Shown here: in pieces, positions 270 through 8,422 of the stretch
Layout: the number at the start of each line of letters is the position of its first letter
Position numbering within the stretch: position 1 is the first letter of the stretch
Origin: an uncultured bacterium
GTDB taxonomy: Bacteria; Verrucomicrobiota; Kiritimatiellia; RFP12; UBA1067
Assembly: GCA_902801025.1 (NCBI GenBank)
Contig: CADCGZ010000007.1
Location: forward strand, 1-64,000
Length of the DNA stretch: 64,000 nucleotides
Reading direction: 5' to 3'
Translations under genes and position numbers: made by a program
The notes under the pieces: model-generated
Seen by the model: the letters and a program-made list of their open reading frames with translations, nothing else
What the model was told of the DNA's origin: nothing
The model's database searches: none

Positions 270-1064
270 TTACCCCCCGCGCGTCATAACGGTTTCGGCA
301 AACCCGGACAGCGGAGAAAAAGTCACATACCTGACAACGGCGCTGCTGTCTGCATTCAGTTCGACGCGCGGCAGGTAGTCGAACGCGGCGAGAGACGCAA
401 AGTCCACGCCCTTCTCGAACAAGCCGAACAGGCTATCGCCGTCATCGGAGTTTGGCGAGAACGGACCATGCCCGACCAGGAACTTCTTTAGCCCCGTCAC
501 AAGCCACTTCAGCTTGTGCAAGGCCGGTCGCCTCAGCTTGAACTGGCTGGCAATGTAGTCGAGCAGAACGATGTCAAGTGTCGCGATGGCGGGATCCCCG
601 ACAAGTCGCATGCGCTCTCGTACGTCTTCGCAGAAGCCCCCTTTGCCGTCGGTCAAGAAGAGCGTCTTGAATCCGTTCTCCGAGTCCCCTTCCTCCAGGC
701 ACGACAACCGCCAATCTGGCTCGAGCTCAAGCCCAGGAAACAACTTGAGGAATCGCGCAAACCACGATTTCCGCTTGCCGGTATCAGCATGCGCGACTGC
801 GGCCATGTATCTGGCCCTGCTTTTATAGTCCTCCTCCACGACTGTCGACGGCACATAGCAGGCCGCCAACTTCATAAGTCCATCCATGACGGCATCGCAA
901 TGCCGCGAAAGCTCGTTCTCGGGATCGTCGCCCAAAGCGAGGATCATCAAAGTCTCAATGCGGTCGCGCTCCTTCTCGCGAAGCTCAGTCGGCAGCTTCC
1001 TGTAGTCCCGCAGCCGCTCGTCGACTTCCTTGACTTTACTAGCATCTATCTGTTGCCTGATCAT
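270..1064 (-). CDS. Hypothetical protein, 264 aa
   Basis: An open frame of 264 codons starting with ATG. I do not recognise the family. The N-terminal 110 residues are charged and probably helical. There is a Lys/Arg-rich stretch around residues 95-110 (KRKSWFARFLKLFPG) and a mixed C-terminal half. No signal peptide or clear membrane segment is visible. It has its own upstream -10 (1101-1106), a leader of about 30 nt and a weak purine-rich ribosome site. Its GC content is higher than that of the genes to its right. It is kept as real because of its length, its promoter and the absence of a better frame on either strand. Confidence 0.6.
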   Translation of the reverse strand: MIRQQIDASKVKEVDERLRDYRKLPTELREKERDRIETLMILALGDDPENELSRHCDAVMDGLMKLAACYVPSTVVEEDYKSRARYMAAVAHADTGKRKSWFARFLKLFPGLELEPDWRLSCLEEGDSENGFKTLFLTDGKGGFCEDVRERMRLVGDPAIATLDIVLLDYIASQFKLRRPALHKLKWLVTGLKKFLVGHGPFSPNSDDGDSLFGLFEKGVDFASLAAFDYLPRVELNADSSAVVRYVTFSPLSGFAETVMTRGG

Positions 1065-1100
1065 ACTTTATCTTCTTGTTACTTTCAACTGAAGGAATCA

Positions 1101-1106
1101 ATTATA
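1101..1106 (-). promoter_or_regulatory. -10 hexamer for the 264-aa gene
   Basis: TATAAT on the minus strand, 36 nt before the ATG at 1064. No convincing -35 element was found. Confidence 0.4.
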
Positions 1107-1173
1107 CATACGAAATTACAACAAGCAGCATCTCTTCACCTCACAAACAGAAGACCCCATTAATTCTGCCCAA

Positions 1174-3966
1174 TTACTTCAAGGACTCGTCTTTATGCTG
1201 CAATTGGGGGACTTGAATGTCGCCATCTTCAAGAAGTCCACAAGAAACAATATCGAGCTTGATCTTTCCAGAGCGAAGGTCACTAATTAGGTTGGCCACC
1301 TGCTCGCGAACTGCCCAAATATGGCTACCATCTGTCTTCTTACACAATGCGCCCATAGCTTTCTCAAACCGCTTCTTGAGCTTTGCCCGTTGCTTTTTGA
1401 CTTGTTTGTCGCCAAGTTTCGGCTTGATATCCTTAAAGGTGGAAACCATATCAGCAAACTGCATATTCATAGTTCTAGCGAAGGCTTCGCAAAGACGCCC
1501 GTATTCAGGCGAGCCTTTACTTATTGGCGAATTAAGCAGCCTCTTCATCTCGCGACCAAGAGCCCCTGGTGCAAGAAACGCAATCGGCATGATCGACTCT
1601 TTTTCACTGACTCGTTGATATGACACATCAATATAATTGTCGTAAATAGTTATTATAAAATCCCGATTATTTGTGATGTTGTAAATCTTCTTGCCACCGT
1701 TTGAAAAGAGATGCCCAACCTTGTTCAATAACCCACCACAGCTCCTTTTTGACCGACAATCGCGAACACTAGCATTGCAGTCCTTATACTTAAACTCGAG
1801 AAGATTCATACACTCCTCGACAAGTCTGCACATCTCCCTAGTAGTTGACGCTTCAGTAAAAGTAATCTTATAGGACAACTTCTTATCAATTAGCCGCTCA
1901 ATGCATTCTGCATGTTCTATTGATTTAAACCCAATAACCACACCATCCTGTGTATATTCTTTATCCACACCAAAAAGAGAAGGTTCCCATTCGTCTTTTT
2001 CGTCGCATTCAGAGTCCTGCGACTCAACCCCTGTAAAGTAGTCAAGGCGGCAAGCATCATAAGACCTAGCATCCTTATTGATTCCAACAAGGTTCTTCCG
2101 TGAGCAAACAGAGTCAATGAAGAACGACAGCGACCCGCGGAACTCCTCAGCAGGAACCTTACCAGAGCCTTCACCGTTAAACTCCTCAACAAACCCATCC
2201 ATCTTTTCAATAAACTCCCGGCGAATCAGACTAGTAATTCGCACAACAGCCGACGCAATTTCATCCGGCCTTCCGGGCTTGCCTACATTCATTTCCTTTG
2301 CGAAAACATCATTAAGCCTCTTAGCTATATCCACAAGCTTATTATCAGCATCAGGGCATTTCTCATACTCTCGCCCAACGAAGATAAAGAAGGTGTTAAA
2401 CTCCCCTTTGAGCATCTCCCACAACTGTACCATTCCCTTCTGGAAATCCTTAGTATCGGTAGCCCACTTCTGAAGCACCTTGCGTTGCTCGTCCTCTACC
2501 ACATTAAACGCAGGATCCGCAAGTTGCAGAATCATCGCATAAGCTCTTGCAAAAAGCGTCTTGACCGAGGCAACCTCCTTTTTACGGAATTCCTCAATCT
2601 CCCCTTTGATCGTCTCGCTGACATCTTTGTCCGAATCGTACTCAACGAGAACAATTCTTTGATTCCGCATGCAATTCTTTATACGACTAATCCGATCATA
2701 TGCAACTTTATCACCATTCATCTTCTGCAAAGCAGTTAAAAGCACAGAGCTAACAGGCAACATCGCCTCTCGCATGACAAGTATTTCAAGACAAGACACT
2801 GCTTGCTTATACCACTCGACGCGTACTTCGCTCTCCGCATCGGACAGAGCAGGGCTTCCGTCTTCCGACTCTCTCTCTTCCTTTGCCTTCAACTCAACAA
2901 ATGCCGCGCCATAAATCATCGCTATCTTAAGTAGCAATTCTGAATTATCCATCGCAAGACGACGGACGCTCATCAGCTTGTCACCATCTTCAAGTAGCGC
3001 AGCAGCCCACCCGCCCCGCTCCTCTTTGACGATACTGATGTACTTCAAACGTGCATCTGCGGAGAAAAAGTCTTGACGAAGAAGATGGGAATCACACTCA
3101 ATGTATTTACCAAAACAAGATTTCGCCTCGTTAAGATACCGTTTCCTTATCTCTTCGCGGCTTGTTTTCTCAATTTCATCATCAGAAACAGTCTTGAGCG
3201 GTAGCTGCGTAATTTCAAGTGCCGCAGAGCCAAGTTCATACCAAAACTGAGGGTAGACAGAGAAATCCTCCCGCCGCTGATTAAGTTTTGCAAAACGGAG
3301 GAATGGGTCATATTCACTTTTGGCTTCATTGTACCAATCAATCTGTGTTTCCGTAAGTCTCCATTCGTCTTTGAACTCGTAAGCATCCGAAAGCCGCCAA
3401 GCACATTCAAAGAGTTCAACACGTAGCGCATGGAGCTGCTCCACTGCTGCTCGCTCCAACTCCCACATTTTATCCTCAAACTTCTCTAGCTCCTTCGCAT
3501 CGTCCTTCCTTTTATTCGCATACATGCTTACACCAACCACAGCTGCTGTCGCCGCTAGCGCGATTGGATTGCCGACGCAAACGATAAGCGAACTGCCACC
3601 AGACAGAAGCTTATCCATGACAGCCCCATTCACCTTCCTCTCATGGCGCACTTGAAGACGCCTGCGTTCCATGTCACTCAACCTAAAGAAGGAGATAGTG
3701 TCTAGCAACTTCCGCATAACCTTAAGCAAGGCCTCATCCTTGATGATGGACTCAATGTTTAGATTATTGAGAATGGCATTATATTCCTGCTCCATCGCAA
3801 CAAGATTGTTCTTGGCAATGATCTCAGAGACAGATGCCGTACACATGTTAAGTGCAGTTGCCGCCCGAAGCTTGTTGGCATCGCTGCGCTTGAGAGAGAC
3901 ATCGATCTTGGTTATGGAACGAGATCTATCGTTTCTGGAAAAGAATTGCGTGAAGATATTGTTCAT
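1174..3966 (-). CDS. Large membrane-associated protein of unknown function, 930 aa
   Basis: The start at 3966 is chosen because AAGGAGG sits 6-7 nt upstream; a longer frame begins at 4005 but would overlap the preceding gene. The protein is charged and largely helical. One hydrophobic segment, probably a membrane helix or hairpin, lies at about residues 120-147 and is rich in Gly, Ala and Val. Most of the protein follows that segment. The last 100 residues are basic. I see no catalytic motif. It starts 10 nt after the stop of the EEP-fold enzyme gene, so the two are almost certainly co-transcribed. It has low GC and AT-rich codons, unlike the housekeeping genes further right, consistent with horizontal acquisition. 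No function can be assigned. Confidence 0.75.
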   Translation of the reverse strand: MNNIFTQFFSRNDRSRSITKIDVSLKRSDANKLRAATALNMCTASVSEIIAKNNLVAMEQEYNAILNNLNIESIIKDEALLKVMRKLLDTISFFRLSDMERRRLQVRHERKVNGAVMDKLLSGGSSLIVCVGNPIALAATAAVVGVSMYANKRKDDAKELEKFEDKMWELERAAVEQLHALRVELFECAWRLSDAYEFKDEWRLTETQIDWYNEAKSEYDPFLRFAKLNQRREDFSVYPQFWYELGSAALEITQLPLKTVSDDEIEKTSREEIRKRYLNEAKSCFGKYIECDSHLLRQDFFSADARLKYISIVKEERGGWAAALLEDGDKLMSVRRLAMDNSELLLKIAMIYGAAFVELKAKEERESEDGSPALSDAESEVRVEWYKQAVSCLEILVMREAMLPVSSVLLTALQKMNGDKVAYDRISRIKNCMRNQRIVLVEYDSDKDVSETIKGEIEEFRKKEVASVKTLFARAYAMILQLADPAFNVVEDEQRKVLQKWATDTKDFQKGMVQLWEMLKGEFNTFFIFVGREYEKCPDADNKLVDIAKRLNDVFAKEMNVGKPGRPDEIASAVVRITSLIRREFIEKMDGFVEEFNGEGSGKVPAEEFRGSLSFFIDSVCSRKNLVGINKDARSYDACRLDYFTGVESQDSECDEKDEWEPSLFGVDKEYTQDGVVIGFKSIEHAECIERLIDKKLSYKITFTEASTTREMCRLVEECMNLLEFKYKDCNASVRDCRSKRSCGGLLNKVGHLFSNGGKKIYNITNNRDFIITIYDNYIDVSYQRVSEKESIMPIAFLAPGALGREMKRLLNSPISKGSPEYGRLCEAFARTMNMQFADMVSTFKDIKPKLGDKQVKKQRAKLKKRFEKAMGALCKKTDGSHIWAVREQVANLISDLRSGKIKLDIVSCGLLEDGDIQVPQLQHKDESLK

Positions 3967-3976
3967 GGCTTCCTCC

Positions 3977-5029
3977 TTAAAATGATTGAGACGCAGACAA
4001 GTCAAGCGTCGCCACTATCGGCACGTGATCAGACACACTCTCTTTATAAGAATGAAACATCTGGCTCGACCCTGCGTACACAAGCTCGGGAGCGTCAATA
4101 CGCTGTACATTTCTTATATAATCGCCAACTCGTCCAACTTCGAAACTGAAGTGATCATAATCATTGACATATGAACCGTCATTACCCGGTGTTTGATTCA
4201 TGGCAGAATTTGGCTGAGCTCCGGCAAACGCCTCGTCGTTCCCGAACAACCGCAACACGCCATTGTAGACCAAGGGGAAAAAGCCTAGACCAGCAGAATT
4301 ATCCACCCTAACATCCGGCTGGCCATCCGATCTTAGGTCCAATGTACAAATCGTTGTTTTATCCCTTTGCACGGACATCATTGTCGGCTGTCCTTTGAAC
4401 AATTTAGGGCGCGCATTAACAGCGGCGAGCATGGTGTACTTCAAGTTATAGTCCCCAGCGATGATCGCATATGTGCAAAAGCGCCTGCTAAAACGCGGAT
4501 ATATGTCATTAACGATCTTAGAATATTCATATGCCCTCATTGCCGCGCCTCCATACCACTCCGGATGCGACGACTGATAATTGTCAGGGCTAAATATGAT
4601 ATGCGTGTTTAACACACATAGTTCGTACCTCAATTCACCCAACCGCGTCGTGACAAACCTCGCGACCATCGGCGGACGCTTTATCGAGGTGTATCTCGTC
4701 ATCAATTCTGGCAGCACCTCATTCCCATCGTCGTCCTTTGCAAGAGTCACACAGTTCTCATCCCACAGGAAGGCGTATCCTTCACGATTATTACGCCATG
4801 TCTGTTTTTTGTCAAAGAATGCACGCCATTCACGATTTGCGCCACCAGACACACGAAGCTTGCCTATCAGATTGTCGATTGACTGCTGGTCAATTATCTC
4901 CTGCAACGCAAGCACGTCCGCACCCGACTTCACGATCACCTCGGCCACTACATCATAGTTCTTGGCAAACACACGATTCGTGTTAGAACTAAAGTTACAA
5001 AGATTTAAAGATCCTATCGTCAGTGCCAT
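3977..5029 (-). CDS. Endonuclease/exonuclease/phosphatase (EEP, DNase I-like) superfamily enzyme
   Basis: 350 aa from the ATG at 5029; a GTG at 5053 would add 8 residues. The ATG is preferred because EEP proteins begin with a strand like LTIGSLNLCNF. The metal-dependent EEP signatures occur in order: Asn9 in the first strand, LQE at about 42-44, NTH in the middle, GDYNL, DYDHF and a final SDHVPI. The predicted active site is therefore complete. EEP enzymes cleave phosphodiester or phosphomonoester bonds in nucleic acids, lipids or inositol phosphates; the substrate cannot be told from sequence. The gene lies directly upstream of the 930-aa membrane protein in an AT-rich block. No clear signal peptide is present. 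Confidence 0.85.
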   Translation of the reverse strand: MALTIGSLNLCNFSSNTNRVFAKNYDVVAEVIVKSGADVLALQEIIDQQSIDNLIGKLRVSGGANREWRAFFDKKQTWRNNREGYAFLWDENCVTLAKDDDGNEVLPELMTRYTSIKRPPMVARFVTTRLGELRYELCVLNTHIIFSPDNYQSSHPEWYGGAAMRAYEYSKIVNDIYPRFSRRFCTYAIIAGDYNLKYTMLAAVNARPKLFKGQPTMMSVQRDKTTICTLDLRSDGQPDVRVDNSAGLGFFPLVYNGVLRLFGNDEAFAGAQPNSAMNQTPGNDGSYVNDYDHFSFEVGRVGDYIRNVQRIDAPELVYAGSSQMFHSYKESVSDHVPIVATLDLSASQSF

Positions 5030-5097
5030 AAGCAAAAACCTAATATAGACCACATGTCTGACTTGCAGATGAAAATCAACAAAAATTCAATTTACCA

Positions 5098-5125
5098 ATA
5101 TTAGTAATTACGACAACCATGTCAA
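5098..5125 (-). promoter_or_regulatory. Promoter of the EEP-membrane protein operon
   Basis: The minus strand has TTGACA (5120-5125), a 16-nt spacer and TAATAT (5098-5103). The predicted leader before the ATG at 5029 is about 60 nt. Confidence 0.55.
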
Positions 5126-5163
5126 CTTGTGCAGTGATTAACATGCCACAGCTTCACAGTATA

Positions 5164-5202
5164 CCGCACAAGGCAAGGCTAGACAAAACCTGCCTTGCGC
5201 GG
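5164..5202. repeat. Imperfect inverted repeat (hairpin) between two island genes
   Basis: CCGCACAAGGCAAGG and CCTGCCTTGCGCGG are complementary over about 13 pairs, with one bulged A and one mismatch, around a 10-nt loop. It lies between the stop of the 75-aa gene and the promoter of the EEP operon. No T-run follows on the minus strand, so it is not a standard intrinsic terminator. Confidence 0.55.
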
Positions 5203-5233
5203 CCACCGTTACCATGTTCTATCTATTATAGCA

Positions 5234-5461
5234 CTATTTTTTCTTTGCGACCTTCTTTGCGGGGATCTTTTTTGCTGTTGGCTTCTTGTTTGCCGGCTTC
5301 TTGGCAGTTGGTTTTTTATCCAACTCCTTCTTCACATAATGCGTCCCCACAGCTGTCGCAGCGACCCCAATCATGGGCAGTCCAAGCACCGTTGCTGCAC
5401 CAGCGGCAATGGCCTCTGCCTTATGCTTTTTGAGAAATGTCAATACTTCTTTCATGTTCAT
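5234..5461 (-). CDS. Small Lys-rich single-pass membrane peptide, 75 aa
   Basis: The peptide has a short basic N-terminus, a hydrophobic Ala/Gly/Val-rich segment (about residues 17-40), and a C-terminal tail of about 25 residues made almost only of Lys, Ala and Pro in AKK/PTAKK repeats. Such tails resemble histone H1-like basic tails, but the membrane-like segment is unusual for a DNA-binding protein. AAGGA lies 8 nt before the ATG, and a good promoter (TTGCAA-17-TATAAT) lies upstream, so it is probably a real gene. Function unknown; binding of the tail to nucleic acid or acidic surfaces is an inference from charge only. Confidence 0.65.
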   Translation of the reverse strand: MNMKEVLTFLKKHKAEAIAAGAATVLGLPMIGVAATAVGTHYVKKELDKKPTAKKPANKKPTAKKIPAKKVAKKK

Positions 5462-5717
5462 TGTATTTATTCCTTTCGTATTTGTTAACTTTAACAGATT
5501 AATTTTCCTAGATTCAAATTTATAGTTGAAACATTTGCATTATAACACAGTATCAAACAAGTTGCAACATGCTTCGACTTGATTGTGGAAATGATAATAT
5601 CTCGTGGTCCTGCAAAGAAGAGAGTTCTATGCTGAGCTCGGCGTTCCACCACCGGCAGGTGGCGCATTTCATTTCCATAATCCGACAGAAAGCTGGCATA
5701 TCAAATTCACATATTTA
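5462..5717. other. Intergenic region, 256 bp
   Basis: AT-rich. It carries the promoter and leader of the 75-aa gene on the minus strand. The remaining 150 bp, downstream of the coiled-coil membrane gene, shows only a short CCACC/GGTGG hairpin with no T-run. I see no further gene. Confidence 0.5.
5539..5567 (-). promoter_or_regulatory. Promoter of the 75-aa peptide gene
   Basis: TTGCAA (5562-5567), a 17-nt spacer and TATAAT (5539-5544) preceded by TGT, an extended -10. The leader is about 70 nt and AT-rich, with AAGGA before the ATG. Confidence 0.65.
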
Positions 5718-6908
5718 TCATTTACCGTATTTCTTCCAAATCAAATATGTGCGAAGAAATTTCAAGGATGCCTCGACTATATCTTCTTTTTCATCCCTAT
5801 TCTTGTATTCGTAGTATGCTGCAGCCTTTTCTCGCGTGAACTGGCGGTAATCCGAGGACCTCGCCATTTCTTTTAGACGGTTTAGAATCTCACTCGCTCT
5901 GGCAAGAGGTTCCATTTTATCAAGATAGGCTAGCTCTTTGTCCATTTCAGCTTCGTACTTTGCCATCTCTTTTTCAAGACGCGCTTTTTCCATTGCCGCC
6001 TTCTCCGCAGATTCCTTCTCTGCTTTCTTACGTGCAGCAGCAAGCGCTTCTTTATTTTTTCTTAATTCCTCTTCAAAGCGCTCTATCTCCTTCTTGTCGA
6101 CAATCTTAGCATAAGCTTCAACCGTAGACCCAGCGCCTAAGGCAGTCGTATAAGAATAGGTCCCTTTTCGCACATAAATGCCTTCTTTCAATTGCGCACC
6201 GTCAACATAGCCACCATCTTGCGTCATGATAAAAACTATCTTGTCATTCGAGCCAGATCCTGAAAAAGCACTAAACCGTTCGGCTTCTTGCTCAAACATG
6301 TTCTCAAGATAATTGCCTGACCCATACACATAATGTACTAAGATACCGTCATCCGTCACACTTAAGACTTGTACTGCAGGATTCTGTCGATGTCGAAATG
6401 CCGTCCCAAACGCGGGTGTCGCCGTATGCTGGAAAATGTTCGAAAATGAGAGATCGCTAGCCTCAACGAATGCTCCGCCAGGCATTCTACCAACACCCCA
6501 TCCTACGACGAGTGAAAAAATTAAAATTGACGGCAAGGCAATTTTATCAACAATCGGCGTTAGCGGGCGATTCTTTACCTGAAGAAAAAGCCCGATCAGC
6601 ACATAAGCGACGAAAAGAACGGCAAAAAGCAACAAGGCATCTAAAAGAAACCATGCACAAAGAACAACCAGGACAACACCTGCAATCTTCCATACAATAG
6701 GAGGAACCTTTCCATCCAACTTGGACTTGATTTCAGCGGCTTTTTCTTTTGTTGCCTCCGCTGCGGCACGCGCCTTCTCTACATCTTCTGGACGCGCTTC
6801 CGTGGCCTTCTTTACGGCCTTTCCCCACCCCAGAGCGAGCAGATTCTTCAGCACTACCAGTTTCTCGAGTGCAGCCGACTTAAATGCTGCAAATGAGATC
6901 TTTTCCAT
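5718..6908 (-). CDS. Membrane protein with cytoplasmic helices and a coiled coil, 396 aa
   Basis: The N-terminal 65 residues are basic and helical. Two or three close hydrophobic segments follow (about 69-110) and another at about 122-140. A mixed domain of some 100 residues contains a MTQDGGYVDG stretch. A long charged coiled coil (about 255-340, rich in Glu, Lys and Ala) precedes a short C-terminal helical end. AAAGGAGGA lies close before the ATG. The gene ends the AT-rich island. Its transcript is predicted to start near 7118 and so carries a leader of about 200 nt with a strong hairpin. No family was recognised. Confidence 0.7.
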   Translation of the reverse strand: MEKISFAAFKSAALEKLVVLKNLLALGWGKAVKKATEARPEDVEKARAAAEATKEKAAEIKSKLDGKVPPIVWKIAGVVLVVLCAWFLLDALLLFAVLFVAYVLIGLFLQVKNRPLTPIVDKIALPSILIFSLVVGWGVGRMPGGAFVEASDLSFSNIFQHTATPAFGTAFRHRQNPAVQVLSVTDDGILVHYVYGSGNYLENMFEQEAERFSAFSGSGSNDKIVFIMTQDGGYVDGAQLKEGIYVRKGTYSYTTALGAGSTVEAYAKIVDKKEIERFEEELRKNKEALAAARKKAEKESAEKAAMEKARLEKEMAKYEAEMDKELAYLDKMEPLARASEILNRLKEMARSSDYRQFTREKAAAYYEYKNRDEKEDIVEASLKFLRTYLIWKKYGK

Positions 6909-6941
6909 AATCGTCTTCCTCCTTTATGTTTATACAAAAAA

Positions 6942-7010
6942 GTGCGTCGTTCTGTTCCTTTGTCGGAGGCCCTAGCACAGGCCGGTTGGAAAGGAGACAG
7001 GACGACGCAC
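6942..7010. repeat. Long imperfect inverted repeat in the 5' leader
   Basis: GTGCGTCGTTCTGTTCCTTT at 6942-6961 pairs with 6990-7010 over 20 positions, with one bulge and one G-T pair. An inner GGCC/GGCC helix (6968-6971 with 6980-6983) extends the structure. The whole element is about 69 nt and would form a stable RNA hairpin in the leader of the 396-aa gene. It could be an attenuator, a protein-binding site or a small non-autonomous mobile element; the sequence alone does not decide. Confidence 0.75.
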
Positions 7011-7133: not shown

Positions 7134-7233
7134 CACGAAACACGAAAAACGCAACGGGTATTTCCGCGCGCCCTCCGGCGCGCCGCCCTGTCCATACACA
7201 CATACGAACGGCAACCGGGGCCGTGACAAAATT

Positions 7234-7242
7234 TGCTATAAT
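7234..7242 (+). promoter_or_regulatory. Extended -10 promoter of the kinase-sigma operon, leaderless
   Basis: TGCTATAAT ends 7 nt before the ATG of the kinase at 7250, so transcription should begin at or next to the start codon. No Shine-Dalgarno sequence is present. Confidence 0.65.
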
Positions 7243-7249
7243 AATTCCG

Positions 7250-8422
7250 ATGCGGCAGATCGGAGAGTATGACATCATAGGCGAGGTAGGGCGCGGCGGA
7301 ATGGGGACTGTCTTCAAGGCCGTCCACCACACGCGGCAGACCGAACACGCCATCAAGGTCTTCAATGTCGCAAATGCCGCGAACCGCCCTGCCCTCGCGA
7401 AGAAGTTCCTTGCCGAAGCGAAGCTCGCCACAATAATTCGCCACCCCAATATCGTCCGCATCACTGACAGCGGAACAGATGGAGACGGGAACCCATATCT
7501 TGTCATGGGCTTCGTCGGCGAAGGTCATACCCTTGCCGACCGTCTCGCATCTCGCCCGCCGTCGCCAGACGAAGTTCTCCGTCTTTACGGCGAAATCCGC
7601 TCCGCACTCGCTTGCTGCCACGGACACGGCATCGTCCATGCCGACCTGAAAGCCGAGAACGTGCTGCTCGACCCAGACGGACGCGCCGTCCTAGCCGACT
7701 TCGGCATCGCGCGCGTCCTCAATCCCGAGTTCCGCGCCGGACTATCTCTTGCGACTGCGACACTCCCCGTGAATCTCGGCACGCCATACGCCCTCGCTCC
7801 TGAATGCGTCCGCGGCGAATTGGCGACGCCCGCCTCGGATGTCTATGCCTTTGGCGTCCTTCTCTTCAAGCTGACTACCGGCATCTGGTTCGAGGGCTCG
7901 CCTCGCCTTCTCAGACAAGTCCGCGAGCTCGCGCCAGAATGGGCGCCGCTCCTCACGCACATGCTCGCAAGCGATCCCGCACGACGGCCAGCCGATGCGC
8001 GAGCACTCCCTGAAAACCCACTTGCCGCGAGATCGCACCCATGGCGGCTCGCACTTGCACTAACAATTGGCGGGCTGCTCGCTGCCGCTGCTACCGGCCT
8101 CATCCTGCACGACAAGCCAAGCGAGATCCAAACGAAACCACAGTTAGTCAAGGCCGCCGACATCCGCGGCGGATATGTTCCGTATGCCGTCCTGACTCCC
8201 GCCGACACGCTCGTCCTCACGAGTGCAGTCCACTTCGGCACTGTTGTGCTGCCGGACACAAACGGCTTTGTCCATATCCGTGCACCAAAGAATTTCTCAG
8301 GAACGCTGGTCAGCGCCGACCATGCAGAAGGGAGCCTGTACAGCCAGTTTCACGTCGACAGGGAACCAGGCATGCGGGTATTCATAGTAGGCAACCAGAA
8401 AATCGTCATCAAAAGGCAATGA
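7250..8422 (+). CDS. Transmembrane Ser/Thr protein kinase (Hanks type)
   Basis: 390 aa. The kinase domain spans about residues 7-255: Gly-rich loop GRGGMG (14-19), catalytic Lys36 in AIKVF, catalytic loop HADLKAEN (130-137), DFG at 150-152 and APE at 183-185. The loop has HAD rather than HRD, so this is a non-RD kinase. A membrane helix lies at about 266-287, followed by an outside domain of some 100 residues of unknown type that could sense a ligand or a cell-wall state. The start is fixed by the domain start and by the extended -10 seven bases upstream. Its stop overlaps the start of the sigma factor gene (ATGA), so the kinase is likely to control that sigma factor. Confidence 0.93.
   Translation: MRQIGEYDIIGEVGRGGMGTVFKAVHHTRQTEHAIKVFNVANAANRPALAKKFLAEAKLATIIRHPNIVRITDSGTDGDGNPYLVMGFVGEGHTLADRLASRPPSPDEVLRLYGEIRSALACCHGHGIVHADLKAENVLLDPDGRAVLADFGIARVLNPEFRAGLSLATATLPVNLGTPYALAPECVRGELATPASDVYAFGVLLFKLTTGIWFEGSPRLLRQVRELAPEWAPLLTHMLASDPARRPADARALPENPLAARSHPWRLALALTIGGLLAAAATGLILHDKPSEIQTKPQLVKAADIRGGYVPYAVLTPADTLVLTSAVHFGTVVLPDTNGFVHIRAPKNFSGTLVSADHAEGSLYSQFHVDREPGMRVFIVGNQKIVIKRQ

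Follow-up and report, generated by a model that had tools for sequence, protein, structure and literature searches.

Here, we describe a pair of adjacent genes, one for a predicted DNase I-like nuclease of the EEP superfamily and the other for a large partner protein, located in an AT-rich island of an uncultured bacterium (Verrucomicrobiota; Kiritimatiellia; RFP12; UBA1067). The stretch of DNA analysed, called the window below, comprised positions 1 to 64,000 of contig CADCGZ010000007.1 (GenBank assembly GCA_902801025.1) and is the start of that contig; the source is a draft genome of 3.5 Mb in 195 contigs. The host is a rumen-type bacterium, and homology search gave the Kiritimatiellae metagenome-assembled genome (MAG) RGIG4421 (roe deer omasum) as the closest named relative at the locus.

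The EEP gene and its partner

An earlier note on this DNA, made from the letters alone, had marked out an AT-rich block at 1174-6908, and this block indeed has the lowest GC content of the window, by 1-kb steps as well as by 5.7-kb frames. GC was 0.41 to 0.48 in all 1-kb steps from 1001 to 7000 and at least 0.493 in all remaining steps of the 64 kb (range, 0.49 to 0.68); a 5.7-kb frame placed on the block had a GC of 0.45, and the lowest frame without overlap had 0.536. GC at third codon positions was 0.43 to 0.54 in the four island genes versus 0.66 to 0.83 in eight neighbour genes. All four are transcribed from the minus strand, in the order coiled-coil gene, Lys-tail gene, EEP gene, and 930-codon gene; the first two, described in the note as following the pair, precede it.

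The EEP gene (3977..5029, minus strand) was identified by motifs and profiles and encodes 350 aa from its likely ATG (the alternative, listed GTG start at 5053 adds 8 residues). Its product has no signal peptide, and the first strand motif starts from about residue 3, for which reasons the protein was read as cytosolic. The motifs SLN..N, LQE, NTH, GDYN, YDH, and SDHVP are present, with the residues in the order strand-1 N, E of LQE, H of NTH, D-x-N of GDxN, D of YDH, and D-H of SDH. The residues that we take to be catalytic are invariant in all seven aligned members, and the gene is intact, as had been claimed. Pfam Exo_endo_phos matched the window protein at E 1e-4, just short of the cut-off, and the NCBIfam MnuA model (NF045851) matched 7/7 members (best E 2.5e-13). 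When the family profile was compared with solved structures, the first four matches were to DNase gamma and DNase I (E 1e-8 to 2e-5), with DNase gamma as the top PDB match (E 1.1e-8) and sphingomyelinase C at E 4e-4 only. A lipid phosphatase or sphingomyelinase was accordingly rejected, DNase-type structures scoring better. With the motifs in place and DNase gamma and DNase I as the best structure matches, the protein was read as DNase I-type, that is, as a putative cytosolic nuclease with predicted DNase activity.

The partner gene (1174..3966, minus strand; 930 aa) starts 10 nt past the EEP stop, with a AAGGAGGA site, in agreement with the spacing first reported. Profile-library searches bore out the description of a big protein without known domains: Pfam, NCBIfam, PHROGs, and PADLOC gave no match better than E 0.01, and partner profiles found no convincing match among solved structures. 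An N-terminal helical domain (about residues 24 to 260; called helical from prediction and visual inspection, with a structure model of low confidence) is conserved, and the C-terminal part is variable. Identities by thirds, from N to C terminus, were 0.87, 0.75, and 0.64 between genomes G000 and G093 and 0.72, 0.45, and 0.39 between G062 and G074.

The label of membrane protein, as a defining trait, fared less well. It depends on a single hydrophobic stretch, with a 19-residue mean of 2.0 in the window protein and 1.9 in its closest relative, but no more than about 1.5 in four further relatives tested. Since the stretch is not conserved in relatives, a role at the membrane does not characterise the family, and a membrane-pore reading of the family was set aside. 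A C terminus of the SLATT/2TM effector kind was rejected as well. The weak matches concerned (SLATT_4, E 0.07, under cut-off; PADLOC 2TM effector, E 0.015, over 30 C-terminal residues) span 30 to 38 residues of a charged helix that is missing in more distant relatives.

Conservation and horizontal movement of the pair

Profile searches detected the partner family in 14 of the order's 161 genomes and in 7 of a phylum-wide draw of 387, the two sets overlapping. Its 17 distinct proteins fell into two clades, each with support 100/100. Clade A comprised 7 proteins, none with a signal peptide; clade B comprised 10, mostly with signal peptides (judged by eye), including one with a lipoprotein-like leader (G233) and one cut at a contig start (G004).

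The EEP type of the window was found in seven genomes, five from the 161 of the order (own genome included) and two from another class, and a clade A partner gene lay directly downstream in 7/7. The reverse pairing was also complete, each of the seven clade A genes lying directly behind an EEP gene; this count leaves out the partner gene on contig C170 of G093, a further copy that is cut by the contig end and was taken as an assembly duplicate. Contigs C78 and C170 of that genome (L021 and L022) carry the same 8.5 kb at 99.97% identity, probably through assembly redundancy. The gap between the genes was 10 nt in G000 and G093, -4 nt in G062 and G074, 11 nt in G087, and 14 nt in G384 and G460. 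The EEP gene of G087 was missed by single-sequence search and recognised by Pfam (E 4e-6), and G384 and G460 were found independently by the EEP profile and the partner profile. Class-level draws yielded no new genome (1/136, own only; 1/138, G384 only), and in the order of G384 the pair was found in 2/137 genomes, both already known. A pair conserved nowhere, an outcome that the earlier note had allowed for, therefore did not occur; homologue search found the pairing with EEP genes conserved.

The EEP and partner trees had the same topology, with groups G000/G093, G062/G074, and G087/G384/G460. Between G000 and G093, dN/dS was 0.07 for both genes alike, and between G384 and G460 it was 0.04 for the EEP gene (14 differences). 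The two genes form a conserved, co-inherited operon under purifying selection, with catalytic motifs intact.

The pair also moves horizontally between distantly related bacteria. Four of its carriers (G000, G093, G074, and G087) are of one genus, G062 is of another genus, and G384 and G460 are of another class; the first genus occupies three places in the tree, beside G062 and beside G384/G460. The latter two genomes, from two genera, are 99.4% identical in EEP and 98.7% in partner, with RecO at 34%, and have in common a 4.7-kb block at 94% DNA identity. This block starts at a tRNA-Met gene (L047 6509-6583; L048 5562-5636) whose own sequence is not the same in both genomes, which fits an island entering behind the tRNA, and the tRNA-Met gene is likely the insertion site; the other end of the block is a contig edge, and chimeric contigs are possible in MAGs. 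The GC content of the pair was lower than that of its flanks in 7/7 genomes. Gene trees in conflict with host taxonomy, together with atypical composition, mark the pair as mobile-island cargo.

Neighbouring genes, other island features, and secreted relatives

Gene order around the pair varied. In G074, it was SLFN_AlbA_2-HATPase gene, 201-aa gene, BnzB-like gene, S1 gene, pair, and FtsK-type gene; in G087, DUF4062-HATPase gene, 217-aa gene, pair, BnzB-like gene, S1 gene, TerB-DnaJ gene, and DUF4143 ATPase gene, the last matching PADLOC candidate system PDC-S01. G093 had RtcR-CARF, bpMoxR, and VWA genes (3 to 8 kb from the pair), a DUF4062-HATPase gene, the pair, and a TerB-like fragment; G062 had the pair, a 179-aa gene, and a TerB-DnaJ gene; and G384 and G460 had a TerB/DUF533 gene and then the pair. 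The BnzB-like proteins were recognised by PADLOC (G074, E 1e-27; G087, E 6e-26). Homologues thus do not always adjoin housekeeping genes, some lying among defence-annotated ones, and the setting is suggestive of defence in three of the seven genomes.

Two recurring neighbours deserve record. The BnzB-like gene is followed by the S1-domain gene (L024 5554-8671 and L025 6414-9646, both plus strand); in G074 they lie upstream of the pair, in G087 downstream. The proteins are 73% and 59% identical between genomes, and the two genes are perhaps a Bunzi-related variant. An acidic-tailed protein of 179 to 217 aa, without Pfam match, is encoded beside the pair in four genomes (L021 8218-8847, L023 3314-3853, L024 4844-5449, and L025 1779-2432); its C-terminal segment (about 130 bp) recurs at 72 to 92% DNA identity.

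In the window, the genes to the right are of ordinary kinds (kinase, RNase_T exonuclease, YkuD, thioredoxin, peptidase C26, and RNase HII); the kinase (7148-8422) matches kinase models of PADLOC, as is to be expected of any generic kinase. Downstream of the 930-codon gene lies a 264-aa gene of normal GC (1064-270, minus strand). Upstream of the EEP gene, a promoter-like TTGACA-16-TAATAT was found by consensus match only (5098..5125, minus strand), and between the Lys-tail and EEP genes lies a strong hairpin (5147..5215, minus strand; fold, -43 kcal/mol; z, -4.77), which had no Rfam match and whose core occurred only in the own genome among the loci fetched.

The two small genes, also of the minus strand, were not supported as members of the unit. 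The Lys-tail gene (5234..5461) encodes a Lys-tailed Gly/Ala-hydrophobic protein of 75 aa; considered as a third component, this protein was compared with the TerB/DUF533 protein encoded upstream of the pair in G384, and the match (E 0.043, two-sequence comparison) was not significant. The coiled-coil gene (5718..6908) encodes 396 aa with N-terminal hydrophobic segments and was matched in 5/161 genomes including its own. The remaining four (G118, G121, G030, and G067) lack the EEP pair, and the gene was classed as an island passenger.

Among the secreted relatives, a secreted Endonuclease_NS gene lies directly upstream of the secreted clade B gene in G108 and G063 (L032 1045-3643 and L050 7356-10428, minus strand), that is, at 2/10 clade B loci. 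The other eight showed no such adjacency, G004 and G116 among them starting at a contig edge, where it is not judgeable. Endonuclease_NS was found in 122/161 genomes of the order, mostly as one or two genes each, and adjacency at two diverged loci is for that reason unlikely to be chance (an estimate, not a computed value). These loci hint that cooperation with nucleases is general to the partner family. A 340-aa protein encoded before one clade B gene (L033 10381-11403, minus strand) appeared by eye to be a nucleotide-cyclase relative and had no Pfam match at E 0.05.

Interpretation and comparison with known systems

Since the pair travels between distant bacteria, it is likely to be a defence or toxin-like system that has so far gone unrecognised, and we lean towards reading the EEP and partner genes as a mobile two-gene nuclease-effector module for defence or another conflict. 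The earlier note had seen in this island the layout of a defence or toxin system; the conserved, mobile pair and some defence-annotated neighbours support that view in part, and the membrane trait and the two small genes as parts drop out of it. In such a module, the cytosolic DNase I-type nuclease would be the effector, and the large helical partner would bind and control it, the conserved N-terminal domain serving as core and the fast-changing C-terminal part as sensing surface. A trigger, e.g., phage or plasmid entry, would release the nuclease, which would then cut the DNA of the invader or, as in abortive infection, of the cell. DNase activity, physical interaction, trigger, and defence role are the parts of this scheme that we infer.

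Several observations weigh against it. No PADLOC-DB 2.0.0 model matched the EEP or partner protein at E 0.001, and nothing in PADLOC fits the pair itself, in keeping with the earlier remark that it matches no known system. AlphaFold2 models, built from two sequences each, reached pLDDT values of 30.8 and 38.7 and gave no structural support for an EEP-partner interaction. No recognised defence gene stood beside the pair in the window, G384, or G460, among the subset of neighbours scanned, and the matches of the DUF4062/HATPase genes to pAgo models were partial, making these genes weak defence markers. Searches of phage collections with the partner, and of plasmid and viral-contig collections with both genes, yielded no copy. 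The dN/dS of the partner gene between G384 and G460 was 0.5, on only 12 differences, and a loop glutamate ahead of the AFLW motif, present in four EEP members, is out of register in G087 and missing in G384 and G460.

Tight spacing, co-inheritance, mobility, and a tRNA-linked location would equally suit a toxin-antitoxin-like addiction module, with the EEP DNase as toxin and the big protein as its neutraliser, stabilising a genomic island and not directed at phage. We regard this as unlikely: by general knowledge, an antitoxin of 627 to 930 aa with a fast-evolving C-terminal part would be unusual, and the genes scanned beside the pair included no recognisable recombinase, several loci being cut by contig ends. 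It is distinctly improbable that the pair serves nucleic-acid scavenging or turnover, with the partner family assisting nucleases in DNA handling, EEP in the cytoplasm and Endonuclease_NS in the envelope. The secreted relatives behind secreted Endonuclease_NS genes in G108 and G063 fit that idea, and mycoplasma nucleases of the MnuA type have been tied to nucleotide acquisition (PMC12115388); an Endonuclease_NS gene, however, adjoins only 2/10 secreted relatives, and the EEP pair is without signal peptides, patchy (5/161 genomes of the order), and mobile. Very improbable, finally, is a role within an integrative element, where the pair would process the element's own DNA in replication or transfer and would not serve conflict. 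An island-like site after tRNA-Met in G384 and G460 and an FtsK-type gene near the G074 copy would fit; neighbours vary between loci, however, and none of the genes scanned next to the pair was recognised as a relaxase, integrase, or replication gene.

A bolder and rather doubtful extension of the nuclease-effector module is that the partner founds a new nuclease-controlling family that has enlisted nucleases of two unrelated kinds, EEP intracellularly and Endonuclease_NS at the envelope, as a two-compartment immune or toxin system so far undescribed in bacteria. No description of such an EEP-partner pair was found in the literature searched, in which subscription journals are thinly covered and PMC12115388 and PMC8195603 are represented in part; the defence genes of the host group seem little charted there. 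The pair is a compact candidate module for defence or conflict, both parts of which are unnamed in the libraries searched. If the preferred reading is true, the effectors that act within bacterial cells would come to include DNase I-like enzymes, and the occurrence of one helical family next to two different nuclease folds would suggest a general mode of nuclease control.

Among known proteins, DNase I and DNase gamma give the best structure-profile match, with the same motif order through SDH, but the window enzyme is bacterial, lacks a signal peptide, and is encoded with a large partner. The profile of the membrane nuclease MnuA is matched by 7/7 members; the window protein, however, reaches 46 bits against a curated cut-off of 185, only the first half of the profile is aligned, and the protein has neither membrane anchor nor lipoprotein signal. 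The secreted clade B family shares a homologous N-terminal domain with the partner and has Endonuclease_NS adjacent in 2/10 loci, and differs from clade A in its signal peptides, its separate clade, the unrelated nuclease fold, and the usual lack of a nuclease neighbour. Unlike a secreted polymorphic toxin, the EEP nuclease carries no trafficking domain or signal peptide at six of the seven loci, where the protein opens directly with the fold, provided that translation starts from the first ATG ahead of motif 1; G087, whose copy alone has a Gly/Ala hydrophobic N terminus, is uncertain in its start. In its layout of a nuclease and a large partner, its mobility, and its patchy distribution, the pair resembles the two-gene nuclease defence systems of PADLOC-DB 2.0.0.

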